Part shown: positions 15,774-29,134 of the stretch, piece by piece
How the letters are laid out: each line of letters opens with the position of its first letter
How positions within the stretch are numbered: the first letter of the stretch is position 1
From: Candidatus Scalindua sp.
GTDB taxonomy: Bacteria; Planctomycetota; Brocadiia; Brocadiales; Scalinduaceae
Length of the DNA: 40,810 bases
Assembly: GCA_021776915.1 (NCBI GenBank)
Contig: JAIQZU010000061.1
Location: 1 to 40,810, forward strand
Direction: 5' to 3'
The notes under the pieces: generated by a model
What the model was told of the DNA's origin: nothing
Seen by the model: only the letters and a program-made list of their open reading frames with translations
Databases searched by the model: none
Program-made: the position numbers and the translations under genes

Positions 15774-16106
15774 TTAACGGTCACTACTCCCATTATTCCT
15801 ACCAATACTCTTCAACCGTTTCTCAGTCTTATCATAATTCCCCAGATACGCACGCATCAGGCTTTTCCATAGTTTGCCGTGATTGGGTACGTTGAAATGA
15901 AGCAATTCATGGACAATGACATACTCTCCAATTTTTGTATCATACTCAAGCAGTTCAGAATTGAAGTTCAGGTTTCCATGAGTTGAACATGAGGCCCATT
16001 TTGTCTTCATCGGCCTCATATAGAGTGCATTAATGGCAATATCAAGCTTTTCAGCATAATAACGCACCCTCTGTTTAAAATCTTCTTTGTCTTTCCAATA
16101 CTTCAT
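15774..16106 (-). CDS. YgjP-like (DUF45) zinc metallopeptidase
   Basis: 110 residues, a short form of the family. The diagnostic features are TKWASCSTHGNLNFN (residues 34-48) and the zinc site HELLHF near residues 68-73, followed by NHGKLWKSLM with the third ligand histidine. YgjP/DUF45 proteins have a minimal metallopeptidase fold and are very often encoded beside type I restriction enzymes, as here: the gene starts 2 bp after the hsdR stop. Its job in the system is unknown. Because it follows hsdR so closely, it is certainly co-translated with it. Compared with other members it lacks the usual N-terminal extension. Confidence 0.87.
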   Translation of the reverse strand: MKYWKDKEDFKQRVRYYAEKLDIAINALYMRPMKTKWASCSTHGNLNFNSELLEYDTKIGEYVIVHELLHFNVPNHGKLWKSLMRAYLGNYDKTEKRLKSIGRNNGSSDR

Positions 16107-16108
16107 GT

Positions 16109-19033
16109 CTATATGTCAAATGCTTTAGAAAGTAGATTAAAAAGCTCATCAACAAGTGCTGCTGCTTTATCAATATCATCTTCCTCTGCCAATATCGCAT
16201 AATATACCTGTCTGCGCAGTTCTCTCAGGTCACTGGTACTGGTCTGCCAATTTGGATGTTTGACAAATGCCTCTTTTACCTTTTTTGTTATTTTCTCCGC
16301 ATTCTCAAGTTTGCTATCAAGCAACGTCCTGTAGATAAAAAATGTCAATCCGTCAAAACCTTTCTCTGCCTGCTCTTTCTTCCGTCTTTCTTCTTCCTCG
16401 CATAGTCTAATTATTTCTGCAAGGGCTTCCTGTGTTGAAAGCTGCCTGTCTTCATAACGGTCCTTAACAGCCTGAGCCCTCTCTGAAAGAGCGAGTAAGT
16501 TCGGATCTGTACTTTCTTCTTCAGAAATCTTCTCTATACTCTTGATCAAGTTGATTACCTTAGTATTATCATTTCCACCCTTCTCCTTAATCTTCTTAAT
16601 CGTTCGAGCATTAATCTCAATAAATTCATCGACAGATGCTATATCATAAGTACTTACATAATTCTTTACCAGATCGTTGGTCTTCTTCTGAAACTCTCTG
16701 TCTACATACACTCTGTTCGCATAGGCATTTCGAACAGTAGCGTAGATTGAGGAGAGAGTTTTGTAATCGTCAATAAAAGGCCGGAGGAATTTATCAGGAG
16801 ATATTATCTCATAGAGCATCTCAATCTCTTTATATTCTTTAAAAAATTCTTTCCTCTTATCCTTATCTCTGAAATGCTCTATCAGATTATCCGTGTCCTT
16901 ATCATTAAAATTGTGTTCAATCAGGCTTATATACTGCGGCACTTTTCCCTCCATCTTGTTCTTAAAAAGTGTTTTAAGGAGCTTGATGTCCTTGACTACT
17001 GCATTGATTTCGTCACTATCAAAGGCAAGAGCCCTTTCAAGCTTTTCAAATATTCCGACAAAATCGAGTACAAAGCCGTGGGGTTTTACCATATCCTGTT
17101 CCTCATTTTCATAAGGCCGATTTACGCGGGCAATAGCCTGCAGAAGGGTATGGTCACGCATAGGCTTGTCGAGATACATACCATACAGAAGCGGAGCATC
17201 ATAACCGGTAAGGAGTTTTTCTGTAACGATCAGAATCTTTGGTAATTCCCCGAATTTAGCAAAACTTTTCCTTATGGCCCTCTCTTTTTTTGTGTCGTGA
17301 TGAAACTCTTTTAACAACCTTTTATCGTTATTATTGCCGGTATAAACAACTTCGGAATATTCAGGGGGCAGATGATTATCAAGAGCCTTTTTGTATAGTG
17401 CACAGGCCTCCCGGTCAACACCAACAAGAAATGCCTTATACCCCATAGGCTCGATGTTTTCCTGGAAATGTTGAGCAACATATTTAGCAATCTTTTTTAT
17501 ACGCCTCTTTCCTTTAAGAAAGTTCTTTGTATTCACTGCCCGATCGAGTATTTTGTTAAGTTCGTCTATATCTGTAACACAATGATCTTCAGAAAGCTTC
17601 AGGAATTCTTCCTCAAGTATCTCTTCAGGAACGAGCATCTCATTTGGCGCAACAGCATAAAAGAGCGGCAAAGTTGTGCCATCATCAATACTGTCGGCGA
17701 TGGAATATTTATGCAGATAACCCTTTTCATCATCCAGCCCGAAGGTCTTAAACGTTCCCTTGCCGTATGCCGTCTTGTCAATCGGTGTGCCGGTAAAACC
17801 GATAAAGGTGGCATTGGGCAGACCGGCCATCAGGTAATTGCCTAAATCCCCCTGTGTTGTCCGGTGAGCTTCGTCTATGAGTACATAGATATTGTCACGG
17901 CAATTAATATTCTCCGGCATGTCGCGGAATTTATGAATCATGGTCACAATAATTCCACGGTAATCGTCACCCAAAAGCTCATTAAGTTTATCTATGTTAA
18001 CCGCTTTGGAGACATTATTCATTCCCACTGAATCCAGATTCTTCATCATCTGGTCTTCAAGCTCATTTCTGTCAATCATCAGGAGGATTGTCGGCTTATC
18101 AGACTCAGGTGCCTTGAACAGTATTTCTGCCGTCTTTATCATGGTAAATGTCTTACCACTACCCTGTGTATGCCAGACAAGCCCCCGTCTTTTAGATTTG
18201 TGATGTGCCCGTTCAACAACCCTTTCGGCTGCAGTTCTCTGATGCTGATGAAGAATATACTTGTTCAGTTCCTCATCTTTTTCGGCAAACATGATGTAGT
18301 GCTTTAAAAAACCGAGAATATTATCTATCGAACAGAAGGTCTTGATTTTGGCTTCAAGGTTACCAATCTCCTTGTCTTTCCAGTTAAAAATGTTGCGCCG
18401 GATAGTGTTCCATGTGACACCGTAGGAGAAACCTATACTCTCTGTAGCCGTAAATATCTGCTGGGGAACAAACATCTCCGGTGTTTCATCGTGGTAGCGT
18501 CGTACCTGATCTATACCGAGGGCAATCGCCTCATCCCTGGTTGCATTCTTACACTCAATAACAAGGATCGGAATGCCATTAATAAGGAAAACAACATCCT
18601 CACGATTGCCGAAATGTCCGTTATTATAATAGAATTCCTCTGTTACTTCATAGACATTGTTTGATATATTATCGTAGTCAATAAGCTTTAAATCCAATTC
18701 ACGGTTTTCAGACTTGCAGTAGAATTTCTGTCCTTCTCGCAGATACTTGAGAAAATCCCTGTTGCCGAAGATATCTGTGTGGAGCAAGTTGAATTTCTTT
18801 ATTAATCCCCCTTTCTCTTCCTTATATTTGGGATTGAACTCCAACACCTTCTCATACAGCAGGTCATTATAATAGAGTGAGGCATTTCTGGCCCTGTCTC
18901 TGGGTGTTGCACCATCTTTATCAAAGAAACGGCGTTCTTCCGATTCGGTACGCTTAACAATAGTCCAGCCGATTTCATCAGCGTATTTTAATATCCTTGC
19001 CTGGACGGATTTGTGTTCTGAGGGTTGAGGCAT
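16109..19033 (-). CDS. hsdR: Type I restriction enzyme R subunit
   Basis: 974 residues, normal for HsdR. An N-terminal PD-(D/E)xK nuclease is visible as D146 with E160-x-K162 (EDVVFLINGIPILVIECKN). The SF2 translocase follows: Walker A WHTQGSGKT (287-295), DEAH at 387-390, FTGTP, and a C-terminal motor lobe with LTGYDAPLLYGMYLDKPM and LLQAIARVNRP. A coiled, charged C-terminal region would bind the M-S methyltransferase core. The subunit translocates DNA with ATP and cuts far from unmethylated target sites. AGGAG lies about 10 bases before the ATG. It is separated from hsdS by a 683-bp insert carrying a GIY-YIG gene, unlike the tight spacing of the rest of the locus. Confidence 0.95.
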   Translation of the reverse strand: MPQPSEHKSVQARILKYADEIGWTIVKRTESEERRFFDKDGATPRDRARNASLYYNDLLYEKVLEFNPKYKEEKGGLIKKFNLLHTDIFGNRDFLKYLREGQKFYCKSENRELDLKLIDYDNISNNVYEVTEEFYYNNGHFGNREDVVFLINGIPILVIECKNATRDEAIALGIDQVRRYHDETPEMFVPQQIFTATESIGFSYGVTWNTIRRNIFNWKDKEIGNLEAKIKTFCSIDNILGFLKHYIMFAEKDEELNKYILHQHQRTAAERVVERAHHKSKRRGLVWHTQGSGKTFTMIKTAEILFKAPESDKPTILLMIDRNELEDQMMKNLDSVGMNNVSKAVNIDKLNELLGDDYRGIIVTMIHKFRDMPENINCRDNIYVLIDEAHRTTQGDLGNYLMAGLPNATFIGFTGTPIDKTAYGKGTFKTFGLDDEKGYLHKYSIADSIDDGTTLPLFYAVAPNEMLVPEEILEEEFLKLSEDHCVTDIDELNKILDRAVNTKNFLKGKRRIKKIAKYVAQHFQENIEPMGYKAFLVGVDREACALYKKALDNHLPPEYSEVVYTGNNNDKRLLKEFHHDTKKERAIRKSFAKFGELPKILIVTEKLLTGYDAPLLYGMYLDKPMRDHTLLQAIARVNRPYENEEQDMVKPHGFVLDFVGIFEKLERALAFDSDEINAVVKDIKLLKTLFKNKMEGKVPQYISLIEHNFNDKDTDNLIEHFRDKDKRKEFFKEYKEIEMLYEIISPDKFLRPFIDDYKTLSSIYATVRNAYANRVYVDREFQKKTNDLVKNYVSTYDIASVDEFIEINARTIKKIKEKGGNDNTKVINLIKSIEKISEEESTDPNLLALSERAQAVKDRYEDRQLSTQEALAEIIRLCEEEERRKKEQAEKGFDGLTFFIYRTLLDSKLENAEKITKKVKEAFVKHPNWQTSTSDLRELRRQVYYAILAEEDDIDKAAALVDELFNLLSKAFDI

Positions 19034-19145: not shown

Positions 19146-19439
19146 TTATTCAACAAGATCATCGTACAAATCTCTCCATCTCGAATTGCGACTTTCAATT
19201 AATCTCAACTTCCATGCCCTTCGCCATTTCTTCATCTGTTTCTCCCTTATTATGGCGCTTTCAGCGCTGGGATGGTGTTCGTAATATACCAGTCTCGTAA
19301 CACCATATTTTTTCGTAAAACCTTCAGCCAGCTTTTCTTTATGCTGCCATACTCTCTGTAATAAATTAGACGTTACCCCGATATATAGGGTACCGTTTCT
19401 CTTACTTGCGAGGATGTAAACATAAAACTGTTTGTCCAT
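19146..19439 (-). CDS. GIY-YIG endonuclease domain protein (YhbQ-like, 97 aa)
   Basis: 97 residues, the whole protein being one GIY-YIG module. FYVYILASKRNGTLYIGVTS holds the VYI and YIG strands (residues 7-9 and 19-21); R29 in LLQRVWQHK is the expected catalytic arginine, and the KQMKKWRRAWKLRLIE region is typical of the UPF0213/YhbQ group. Members are single-domain nucleases with poorly defined targets. The gene sits between hsdS and hsdR in the same direction and is flanked by GCGGGAAT-type palindromes on both sides (19111-19144 and 19623-19700). It looks like an inserted unit rather than an original part of the restriction locus. Nuclease function is inferred from the domain. Confidence 0.88.
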   Translation of the reverse strand: MDKQFYVYILASKRNGTLYIGVTSNLLQRVWQHKEKLAEGFTKKYGVTRLVYYEHHPSAESAIIREKQMKKWRRAWKLRLIESRNSRWRDLYDDLVE

Positions 19440-19716: not shown

Positions 19717-20904
19717 TTAATCCTCCATATTGGGGAAATCAATATTGTTGACTCGAAGTTGTCCGGTCATGAGTTGGTTGAGAAGGGATTTAAAGAGACT
19801 ATTTATCTTTTCCTTTTTTTTGGAATGAAATTCAATTTTTCTATCAATGGTTGATAAAAAAACTGCAATTTCCTTTTGTTCATTTAAACCTGGAACACCT
19901 ATTTGCATTTCTTTAAATTGGTTTCTATCTAAAGTAGGAACAGATGCTCCTGATTTAAAACGACTAAGATTCATGTGTATAAGATAAAAATAAGTAAAAA
20001 GCTTATCATTCTTATGAAAATCAATTACAACTAAGGATGTATTATGTGCCCAGAAATTTCTGTTGTAATAAGTTACTTTTCCACATGAACCACTTCTACC
20101 TACTGTAATACCCGGAGCTTTAGTATTAGATGTATTATGATAACCTATAATACCATTTGAACCCGCAACAGGAATATTTCCTTCCACAAAATTCTCTTTA
20201 GTTAAATCTTTACCTCTTTTCAATGTACAAAAATCATTAAATTTTACCACCTCCCAACTCTCCGGCACCAGTCCGATTTCTGTCTCTTTCTGTGGTTCTC
20301 CGTGCAATCCTTCGGTAAAGAATTTCTGCATCATGGCCTTTTTCAGCTCGGCGGTGGTCTTGATGATCTCTTCCTGTTTTTCAATGGCTTTTTGGATAGT
20401 GGCCAGGGTGTAAGCGATTTTGCGTTGTTCGGGGAGAGGGGGAAGAGGAATTCTTGTGTCACTTAAAACCGTTTTACTTAAACGTTGTCTTCCGGTTGAT
20501 CCTTCCATTTTCCCTGCAAGTGATTTCCTGAGTTCAGGATTCTTTAGTAAAAAGAAGAGGTAAAGTATAATGCTTTTATTTTCTATTCCTTTAATTGGTA
20601 TAACTTCAGTAGTCGCATAACCTGAAGAAAAAGGTATATCTACAATTGCCTGCTTTCCATTCTCAAATGAAGGCGTGATCTTTGCTAGTAAGAAATCACC
20701 ATTTTCTATATAGGTTCCACTTGAAACTTTTTGCTTTAGAATATAATCAGAAACAAAAAGTCTATCTAACGGAATGCTATCCATTGGGATAAATGGAATA
20801 TTACCATTGTATAAGCTATTTCTTGGTTTCTTTGTATATTCATAAAAGTTTTCAATTTTATCATATTCCCATGAATCTGGAATGTGACTGAAGAGATTTT
20901 TCAT
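19717..20904 (-). CDS. hsdS: Type I restriction enzyme specificity subunit
   Basis: 395 residues with the two-repeat layout of HsdS: a first target-recognition domain (residues 1-150), a conserved helix (LPPLPEQRKIAYTLATIQKAIEKQEEIIKTTAELKKAMMQKFFTEGL, about 153-197), a second target-recognition domain (IGLVPESWEVVKFNDF onwards) and a second conserved helix (NEQKEIAVFLSTIDRKIEFHSKKKEKINSLFKSLLNQLMTGQLRV). The two domains each bind half of a bipartite DNA target, so the locus recognises a split sequence that cannot be read from here. The gene begins 4 bp after the hsdM stop and is co-translated with it. Confidence 0.93.
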   Translation of the reverse strand: MKNLFSHIPDSWEYDKIENFYEYTKKPRNSLYNGNIPFIPMDSIPLDRLFVSDYILKQKVSSGTYIENGDFLLAKITPSFENGKQAIVDIPFSSGYATTEVIPIKGIENKSIILYLFFLLKNPELRKSLAGKMEGSTGRQRLSKTVLSDTRIPLPPLPEQRKIAYTLATIQKAIEKQEEIIKTTAELKKAMMQKFFTEGLHGEPQKETEIGLVPESWEVVKFNDFCTLKRGKDLTKENFVEGNIPVAGSNGIIGYHNTSNTKAPGITVGRSGSCGKVTYYNRNFWAHNTSLVVIDFHKNDKLFTYFYLIHMNLSRFKSGASVPTLDRNQFKEMQIGVPGLNEQKEIAVFLSTIDRKIEFHSKKKEKINSLFKSLLNQLMTGQLRVNNIDFPNMED

Positions 20905-22500: not shown

Positions 22501-22587
22501 GTCAAATAAGAAGTCCTTTAAAATAAACATGTTACAAAATTTTTATTAAAAATATGACTTAATTATCAAATAAAAACTAAGCCCAGA
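22501..22587 (-). promoter_or_regulatory. 87-bp duplicated leader, copy A, upstream of hsdM
   Basis: By hand alignment it matches 24054-24140 at about 70 of 87 positions without gaps. It ends 24 bp before the hsdM start codon. It contains an inverted repeat, CTTAGTT and AATTAAG read on the minus strand, with a 10-base spacer (22558-22581). A TTGATA -35-like box (22564-22569) overlaps the repeat, and a degenerate AT-rich -10 follows at about 15-16 bases. The stop codon of the AlbA_2 gene (TAG) lies inside the left arm. A promoter/operator is the simplest reading. Confidence 0.6.
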
Positions 22588-24028
22588 ATGGTATGTACCT
22601 GGTATACTTTTTTGAAATGTTTTCTTGGTCCTCATGCTTAATTAAATCAGCTTTCATTGTTGCATCAATAATCCTAGAAGCTATTGATGCATTACGTGTG
22701 TCAATTTTAAACCTTTCTCTAAGAGTTTTGTTTGTCATTTTTTCATTAGAAACATATTTGAGACAACAATGCTGATAACAAGCTCTTATTCTGTCTTTTC
22801 TGTTCATATCACTTAACTTTTGATAAGCGTATAATATGACTTTAGTATGATTTTCTGTGGCCATAAATTCAGGAGCTGGAAGTTGGAATACTTCCACTTG
22901 AAAAATTACTTTGTCAATACCACTTCCTTGTTCCTCACAAATACCAACTCTATACATATGTGAAGCTAGTTTTTCATTTCTAGATTGATATTCATCAATA
23001 AATCTCATTGTCATAATTAAAGGTTTGCCAGGATTTGTAATCTCAATTCTATCAGAAAATATCTCTACAACAGGAACTGAACCTCTCTCGTAGAAATCCT
23101 GATGAATTAATGCGTTAGCTACTAGTTCTCTAATAGCAAGTTCAGGATACATACTTACGGTTTTTCTTAACGCTTTGCCTATCTCTTCATTTGAAGGAAG
23201 TTTATCGTTGATATAATCTATCAAATTCTCAAAACCAATTGCATATCCTTTATTGCCAATTTGGTCTTTTATCGTTTCTAATCTGTTTTTGCCTTTATAA
23301 ATAATAACTCGTACTGCTTTTTTAGAAAGGTTTTCAAATTCATTAAGATTCTTTGCAAATAATAATGCTCCTAAATTTGTTATAGAATAGCCTTTGTCAT
23401 CTTTTAAAATTAATCGTTCACTTATAAATTTGTCTATAACTCCATCTCGTGTAGATGGAAAAGGCAATTTCATTAAATCAAAATAATTCTGCGCATCAAG
23501 AAACTTAACAACTTCCTCTGCAGTGAGCTTTCGCATAGCAACTTCATATTCAAATGGAATATTGGGTGTTTTACTCCATATTTTCTTCTCTTTTTCTGGA
23601 AAGTCATTTAGTTTTCTGGTAATGCTACCAATGCGAATATAGGCTGTATGTAGAAATTTTACAGGTTGGTTAGTTGCTGCAGGGACTTCAATTAATATTA
23701 TATGTTTGTTTTTGTAATTAAACTCGAAAATTCTGAAATCAATCCTAGGATTGAGTCTTTGTAAAAGCCAATGCTCTATATCTTCGTTCTTATATTTGAA
23801 TGACCTAGGTTTGAAATTAGTTCCTTCTATGGTATTATTGTCGCTTTTTACTCCAAATACTAAATAGCCGAAAGGCTGTCCTTCCAGGCAGGCACCGTTT
23901 GAAAGGCCAGAAAGCATTTGACCTATTTCTTCGGCACTATGGTAGTTAAGTTTAAACTCTACCCATTCACTTTCTCTGCTTTGTTTTATAAGCTTTTCGA
24001 GTAATATTTTTAGCTCATCTTCTGTCAC
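22577..24028 (-). CDS. AlbA_2/Schlafen-like protein with C-terminal ATPase-like region
   Basis: 483 residues. The N-terminus is an AlbA_2 (divergent AAA_4, Schlafen-like) domain: ESEWVEFKLNYHSAEEIGQMLSGLSNGA (residues 20-47), YLVFGVKSD, then HIILIEVPAATNQPVKF and AYIRIGSITRKL. The middle holds RELVANALIHQDFYERGSVPVVEIFSDRIEITNPGKPL, the GHKL-like pattern (N-box and G1) of the HATPase_c_4 group, and the C-terminus looks like winged-helix DNA-binding sequence. Proteins of this layout are annotated as transcriptional regulators; Schlafen-type domains also act as RNA nucleases. GTG is the start, with AGGA 8 bases upstream. Placement directly before hsdM, behind a matching leader, suggests it regulates or joins the restriction system. 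Confidence 0.85.
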   Translation of the reverse strand: MTEDELKILLEKLIKQSRESEWVEFKLNYHSAEEIGQMLSGLSNGACLEGQPFGYLVFGVKSDNNTIEGTNFKPRSFKYKNEDIEHWLLQRLNPRIDFRIFEFNYKNKHIILIEVPAATNQPVKFLHTAYIRIGSITRKLNDFPEKEKKIWSKTPNIPFEYEVAMRKLTAEEVVKFLDAQNYFDLMKLPFPSTRDGVIDKFISERLILKDDKGYSITNLGALLFAKNLNEFENLSKKAVRVIIYKGKNRLETIKDQIGNKGYAIGFENLIDYINDKLPSNEEIGKALRKTVSMYPELAIRELVANALIHQDFYERGSVPVVEIFSDRIEITNPGKPLIMTMRFIDEYQSRNEKLASHMYRVGICEEQGSGIDKVIFQVEVFQLPAPEFMATENHTKVILYAYQKLSDMNRKDRIRACYQHCCLKYVSNEKMTNKTLRERFKIDTRNASIASRIIDATMKADLIKHEDQENISKKYTRYIPFWA

Positions 24029-24053
24029 TTTTTATCCTATTTATCAAATAACC

Positions 24054-24140
24054 GTCAAATAAGAAGTCTTTTAAGATGAACATGTTACGAGGTTATTATA
24101 AAATATGTAGCTTGGTTATCAAATAAAAACCAAGCCCGAA
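24054..24140 (-). promoter_or_regulatory. 87-bp duplicated leader, copy B, upstream of the AlbA_2 gene
   Basis: It ends 26 bp before the GTG of the AlbA_2 gene, almost the same distance as copy A from hsdM. A near-consensus sigma-70 promoter is visible on the minus strand: TTGATA (24117-24122), 16-bp spacer, TATAAT (24095-24100). A perfect inverted repeat, CTTGGTT and AACCAAG with a 10-base spacer (24111-24134), overlaps the -35 box, as an operator would. One arm position differs between the copies in a compensating way (G-C here, A-T in copy A). Confidence 0.65.
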
Positions 24141-28952: not shown

Positions 28953-29134
28953 AGGGTTCGAGAACAAATAACTTTGTATTCTCGCATCACATTTTCAGGC
29001 CATCTTCGTCCGATCTTCATTCGCCGAATCCTCAACGCAGCCAAGGCTGCGCTTCCGGTTCATCTCAATCAGATTGACCAGATCTGATCTAAACCTGAGA
29101 GCGATAAAATTTAAGTTATTTTTTCCCGAACCCT
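28953..29134. repeat. 182-bp element with 22-bp terminal inverted repeats, upstream of purF
   Basis: The arms 28953-28974 and 29113-29134 are inverted copies with 2 mismatches in 22 (AGGGTTCG... and ...CGAACCCT). Inside is a perfect short palindrome, CGCAGCC-AA-GGCTGCG, and CAGATCTGATC-like repeats. No coding frame is present, so it looks like a MITE or a large hairpin. Its right end is 8 bp before the -35 box of the purF promoter, so it may have modified purF control. The rest of the 354-bp gap 28857-29210 holds only that promoter. Confidence 0.6.

Follow-up and report, generated by a model that had tools for sequence, protein, structure and literature searches.

Tandem direct-repeat sites ahead of hsdM and AlbA_2 genes in Candidatus Scalindua as probable operators of a winged-helix AlbA_2 protein

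Results

Genes of the locus

The window of our study, the whole analysed stretch of 40,810 nucleotides from the 3.79-Mb genome of Candidatus Scalindua sp., was found to contain a minus-strand gene series in the order AlbA_2, hsdM, hsdS, a GIY-YIG gene, hsdR, and a YgjP-like gene. The main features of the series were as follows.

22577..24028, minus strand: AlbA_2 (Schlafen) + HATPase_c_4 + C-terminal winged-helix protein, 483 aa, GTG start (Pfam, AF2); the proposed site-binding protein
22652..22699, minus strand: predicted recognition helix, codons of residues 444-459 (AF2 secondary structure; protein-site covariation)
22688-22690, minus strand: codon of residue 447 of AlbA_2, inside the predicted recognition-helix codons
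20909..22477, minus strand: hsdM, type I methyltransferase subunit (Pfam HsdM_N, N6_Mtase; PADLOC MTase_I)
19717..20904, minus strand: hsdS, specificity subunit (Pfam Methylase_S)
16109..19033, minus strand: hsdR, restriction subunit (Pfam HSDR_N, SWI2_SNF2)

The presence of hsdM, hsdS, and hsdR together (Pfam, PADLOC) identified a type I restriction-modification system. The GIY-YIG gene (19146-19439) was located between hsdS and hsdR, and the YgjP-like metallopeptidase gene (15774-16106) directly after hsdR. Elsewhere in the window, a 22-nt inverted repeat (28953-28974 and 29113-29134) was 91% complementary, with its arms 138 nt apart.

The AlbA_2 protein contained the AlbA_2 domain (PF04326, 1.2e-18) followed by HATPase_c_4 (PF13749, 9.8e-21), the domain order of COG2865-type proteins. 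Its AF2 model (pLDDT 89) ended in a helix-helix-helix-strand-strand arrangement whose third helix spans residues 444-459. The winged helix considered likely in the first-pass annotation was thus predicted at the C-terminus, as a winged helix-turn-helix fold of residues 410-480; it is assigned by prediction only, because no Pfam HTH model matched the window protein. The nearest folds in structure comparison were 3lmm and Schlafen proteins, including SLFN11/13/14. No model for the whole protein was found in NCBIfam or PADLOC.

The two leaders

Two leader sequences, one before hsdM and one before AlbA_2, were found to match without gaps over 84 nt with 82% identity (start-to-start distance 1553), and no other place in the genome gave a strong match (E 1e-17 against 0.68 for the next best). 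The first-pass annotation had described two ungapped 87-bp copies, about 80% identical, 24 and 26 bp before the start codons; the two gap-free copies and their matching distances were retained, with the length and identity revised as above and the distances counted as 23 nt (hsdM) and 25 nt (AlbA_2). The features of the leaders, all on the minus strand, were as follows.

22501..22584, minus strand: leader copy 1, before hsdM, its start overlapping the final 8 nt of AlbA_2 (pairwise match)
24054..24137, minus strand: leader copy 2, before AlbA_2 (pairwise match)
22565..22573, minus strand: hsdM leader site 1, unit TTATTTGAT with an eroded second unit (sequence; invariant block in four leaders)
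22501..22509, minus strand: hsdM leader site 2, a single unit TTATTTGAC with AAGTAAG after it and no second unit (sequence; invariant block)
24118..24126, minus strand: AlbA_2 leader site 1, unit TTATTTGAT, overlapping the -35-like TTGATA (sequence; invariant block)
24043..24062, minus strand: AlbA_2 leader site 2, the tandem TTATTTGACGGTTATTTGAT in complete form, ending 14 nt ahead of the GTG start (motif scan)
24095..24122, minus strand: promoter-like TTGATA-16-TATAAT (consensus match only, 11/12)
24110..24135, minus strand: lineage-specific inverted repeat GCTTGGTT-10-AACCAAGC, exact in copy 2; copy 1 equivalent 22557-22582

Each leader contained two TTATTTGAY units, 64 bp apart, and a second unit was intact solely in AlbA_2 site 2. 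Two further leaders came from the same genus: that of L049 was 92% identical to the hsdM leader and stands before a 114-aa frame, and that of L050 was 80% identical and stands before an hsdM-like gene. The longest invariant blocks among the four Brocadiales leaders were GTTTTTATTTGATAA and GACTTCTTATTTGAC. The promoter-like element reported earlier in copy 2 was recovered (24122-24095); across the region, 6 promoter-like sites were found against 8.4 expected from shuffles, which is no enrichment.

The inverted repeat with a 10-base spacer described in the first pass was exact in copy 2 (arms 24110-24117 and 24128-24135, 10-nt loop), and the arms of copy 1 pair as stated there, with one A-T and two G-T pairs at the matching positions. 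Since copy 1 starts in the last 8 nt of AlbA_2, its left arm coincides with the ..GCT-TAG that closes that gene. The same annotation had proposed selection on a shared operator or an RNA fold. Its operator half is favoured by our data, with AlbA_2 as the likely binder from the residue-site covariation given below, but the inverted repeat, or RNA fold, was rejected as the selected element: it was not seen outside Brocadiales, it had no Rfam match, and in the covariation check that had been proposed 77 of 500 shuffles scored as high as the hairpin of the four Brocadiales leaders. Arms of this kind were missing from the loci that carry the full motif. It is therefore extremely unlikely, in our estimate, that the element acts as RNA, as a hairpin or protein-binding leader controlling the translation of hsdM and AlbA_2, even though both window leaders are predicted to form a hairpin, which is kept in all four leaders (94% of cells paired), and site 2 is found 1-30 nt from the start codon in many loci.

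We also considered that the repeat is a mere scar, without function, from an insertion or duplication of AlbA_2. Copy 1 does start within the last AlbA_2 codons, and sequences resembling the AlbA_2 3' end precede the site in several relatives; however, the TTATTTGAY blocks are invariant in the four leaders and recur across phyla, and beyond the repeat no homology to AlbA_2 was detected upstream of copy 2, which leaves a scar highly improbable. A candidate AlbA_2 3'-end remnant upstream of copy 2 was rejected, as 804 of 2000 shuffles were as good (L049 1423, L050 339).

Tandem motif and its distribution

The complete site was found to be the tandem TTATTTGAYGGTTATTTGAT, two 9-bp units in direct repeat with an 11-bp period. 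The two units vary in parallel, with TTATTTGA or TTATGTGA in both. Elsewhere in the order Brocadiales, TTATTTGAYGGTTATTTGAT was all that remained of the shared element; it was present at 12 sites in 10 of 62 genomes, and the reversed-pattern control gave 0. In a scan of one genome per species, at least 119 stretches, a few of them probably by chance, contained the motif in Bacteroidota, Planctomycetota, Pseudomonadota, Verrucomicrobiota, Bacillota, Rhodothermota, Cloacimonadota, KSB1, and others. The motif adjoined AlbA_2/HATPase_c_4/winged-helix and restriction genes in at least eight phyla.

A second site was most often found at a spacing of 65-67 bp (52 of 83 counted), followed by smaller groups at 76-78, 86-89, and 99-100 bp; the reversed-consensus control gave two scattered matches only. 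Steps of about 11 bp between the spacings, which fit duplex DNA, further oppose action as RNA. Paired sites were alike in the relative G024 and in Candidatus Brocadia sapporoensis NZ_MJUW02000017. What is conserved is a pair of units repeated in the same direction and in phase with the DNA helix, not an inverted repeat. A Kapaibacterium MAG (L157:7043-7397) contained six tandem sites at exactly 67-bp spacing after the AlbA_2 gene. In many Bacteroidota loci (L150, L111, L083), a TTGATWWTCAA-like element was observed between sites 1 and 2, about 10-18 bp before site 2.

The genomic sites were located just 3' of AlbA_2 stops, mostly by 1-5 nt or about 68 nt, or just 5' of the start codons of restriction or AlbA_2 genes. 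The genes directly downstream (n=42) included HSDR_N (12), ResIII (15), AlbA_2 (6), N6_Mtase (3), and Methylase_S (3). Two observations count against AlbA_2 as the regulator of itself and its neighbours: many sites are operon-internal, 3' of AlbA_2 rather than at its own promoter, and 26 of 45 motif-bearing genomes had no close AlbA_2, in a set that contains many drafts and that favours loci whose examined stretch has no AlbA_2. On a Desulfosarcina plasmid (L485), AlbA_2 was found with TTATGTGACTGGTATGTGAT sites in a DUF499/DUF1156/phospholipase-D anti-phage locus, so that the pairing of AlbA_2 and site extends beyond type I restriction. The AlbA_2 genes of L065, L067, and L138 were broken by frameshift or stops, and the flanking sites persist in L065 and L138.

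Covariation between AlbA_2 and the site

AlbA_2 genes were collected by protein alone from 59 relatives and from 296 genomes of the phylum of a Myroides genome, 398 of that of an Actinobacillus genome, and 294 of the window's phylum, and a tandem often stood just 3' of their stop codons. With a strict generic pattern, a tandem was present 3' of AlbA_2 in 26 of 50 loci with both flanks, a set drawn in part from motif-selected genomes, against 0.3% of shuffled flanks. AlbA_2 clades devoid of TTATKTGAY usually contained another tandem in the same place: TTATGTAAC in L061, L064, L353, and L354, TTAATTGAT in L360-L363, TACTTGAT in L357, and TTTTCG-type tandems in L062, L063, and L067.

The letters of the site were found to change with residue 447, which is near the start of the predicted recognition helix (444-459, AF2). 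Among 44 nonredundant proteins, A or S at this position occurred with TT (TTTGA) in 33 of 33 and Y with TG (TGTGA or TGTAA) in 11 of 11 (Fisher p 1.3e-10, uncorrected for relatedness); the 80 genome-collection loci had been selected by pattern, with base 5 left free as T or G. K occurred with AT (ATTGA, n=3) and R with CT (CTTGA, n=1). Within the 48-protein set, residue 447 fixed bases 4 and 5 fully, and P at residue 448 occurred with TGTAAC. Of the 425 columns of the full-length proteins, residue 447 was the best predictor of the variable bases (z 15.7, next 6.8).

When the winged helix was left out of the tree, five changes were counted for the residue and five for the site, and none of 31 rows was discordant. 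Independent residue switches on well-supported branches numbered only three, and the sign test (p 0.25) therefore has no power. The base-5 rule was kept in two further samples, with Y and TGT together in L391, L395, and L485 and other residues with T. The base-4 rule was not kept there, as A/S/Q proteins carried CTTGA in L378, L398, and L486; base 4 is thus not fixed by residue 447 alone. A further locus, L336 (N-S-S), counts against the proposed recognition: its first site is TTATGTGAT, and TTTGA sites come after it.

The first pass had named AlbA_2 as a candidate regulator. We infer from the residue 447-site covariation and from the tandem 3' of AlbA_2 that this protein is the likely binder of the shared operator, its winged helix very probably contacting the tandem sites. 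A host factor or recombinase might instead recognise the sites, with AlbA_2 merely travelling along, and sites without AlbA_2 do occur in viral contigs and in some genomes. We consider this very unlikely, since residue 447 of AlbA_2 predicts the site letters across clades and, in the loci read, neither a recombinase nor any other gene stood beside the sites as regularly as AlbA_2 and the restriction genes.

Sites in viral contigs

The exact 20-mer TTATKTGAYGGTTATKTGAT was present in at least 120 viral stretches (L200-L279 among them), and the reversed pattern in 0. The viral sites were mostly intergenic, and AlbA_2 was absent from the stretches examined. In 41 of 84 cases the site was on the strand opposite both flanking genes, which is again contrary to an RNA element. 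A few viral sites were paired, at 65-67 or 75-78 bp. The sites of other clades were rare in viral contigs (2 each), and no exact full sites were found in cultured phages, plasmids, or E. coli with a 30-bp query.

Some genes near the viral sites matched exonuclease, polymerase processivity factor, and ssDNA-binding families. We did not accept a reading in which the site is under selection in phages: it is confounded because an exonuclease VIII-like family carries the motif in its coding sequence (SNN.QI), and a second family has the motif in only 4 of 20 homologous loci. The sites may also serve as both operator and leash for a Schlafen-type RNase that is quiet when bound to DNA and is released by loss of the host site or by competition from phage DNA, a reading that we regard as doubtful. 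If it were true, phages with exact site copies, some of them near DNA-metabolism genes, would carry a sponge or trigger, and the locus would amount to an abortive system that is gated by DNA sequence and coupled to restriction.

Discussion

In our study, the two leaders are best explained, with good probability, as operator modules for the AlbA_2/HATPase_c_4/winged-helix protein that is encoded between them, one ahead of hsdM and one ahead of AlbA_2 itself. The C-terminal winged helix would read the 9-bp unit, TTATTTGAY in the window, and a complete site would consist of two direct-repeat units at 11 bp. Site pairs about 64-67 bp apart would lie on one helix face, so several protomers could bind together. 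From the position of the sites, control of the next genes is likely, and AlbA_2 probably regulates hsdM and itself. The negative sign is our guess: bound AlbA_2 would most likely block transcription, by occlusion, looping, or roadblock, because the first unit shares bases with a promoter-like element and the second is found just before the start codon. The outcome would be autoregulation of AlbA_2 together with coupled control of the methyltransferase operon.

A serious rival, possible but less than likely, is that AlbA_2 is mainly a Schlafen-type RNase effector within the restriction locus, positioned like PrrC, with the sites as its leash or infection sensor and transcription control as a secondary role. 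The structural matches to SLFN11/13/14 agree with this, and in a profile alignment the family positions E19/E24/D62 align with E206/E211/D249 of SLFN14, the EED combination being present in 52 of 71 homologues. The window protein, however, has E19, E24, and S62 in place of D62 (11 of the 71 homologues have Asn at 62); S62 is no proof of inactivity, because D63 is adjacent. The AlbA_2 gene is often found within restriction or BREX-like loci, which suits an effector, whereas the sites just ahead of restriction-gene starts fit regulation. RNase data for the subfamily of the window protein were not found in the literature searched. We know of no DNA operator for PrrC or RloC. These anticodon nucleases are similar in their gene position in or near a type I locus and in possible RNase action when restriction is countered (PMC2610378), but belong to a different protein family; the ABC ATPase and anticodon nuclease domain of PrrC were not found in AlbA_2 (Pfam, PADLOC). 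BREX-associated proteins with Schlafen, minimal histidine kinase, and wHTH domains have the same domain order as the window protein and are likewise linked to defence. They were described in a 2026 study as backup suicidal RNase effectors (PMC12839542), whereas the window AlbA_2 is proposed here as an operator binder; the terms 'operator', 'direct repeat', 'promoter', and 'binding site' are absent from the text of that study.

For operator control by AlbA_2, the nearest functional analogues are the C proteins of type II systems. C proteins are small, of the helix-turn-helix type, and their C boxes are palindromic. Unlike them, AlbA_2 of the window has 483 aa and three domains, no HTH_3 match (Pfam), and direct tandem units as its putative sites. 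As with Esp1396I (PMC3758141) and Kpn2I (PMC6237814), where roadblock and occlusion modes are known, a self-encoded regulator would act on operators before its own and the restriction or methylation genes. The first-pass annotation had thought that a circuit of this kind would be new among type I systems. A precedent exists in RptR of an E. coli type I restriction/DarTG2 island, a repressor that acts on its type I system by way of direct-repeat sites and was described as conserved across Gammaproteobacteria (PMC12255303). In both cases the regulator gene is linked to the type I operon, and site and gene are conserved together in many genomes. RptR, in contrast, is a 9-kDa alpha-helical protein without AlbA_2 or ATPase domain, and its 9-bp repeats surround a TAGCTA palindrome (PMC12255303). 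Neither the RptR family nor its site was found here, and TAGCTA is missing from both window leaders. The regulator family, the site, and the recognition code appear to be new; the exact motif string was not found in the literature searched, which included PMC12839542 but not the 2025 bacterial-Schlafen preprint cited there.

The pairing of AlbA_2 with the site would account for the shared leader ahead of the restriction and AlbA_2 genes, and the motif is usable as a search pattern for such loci. The one-residue recognition code can be checked with one protein and two probes. The finding also raises the question of why many phages carry the same site. A widespread defence-linked family without a known DNA target would thereby gain a concrete candidate target.
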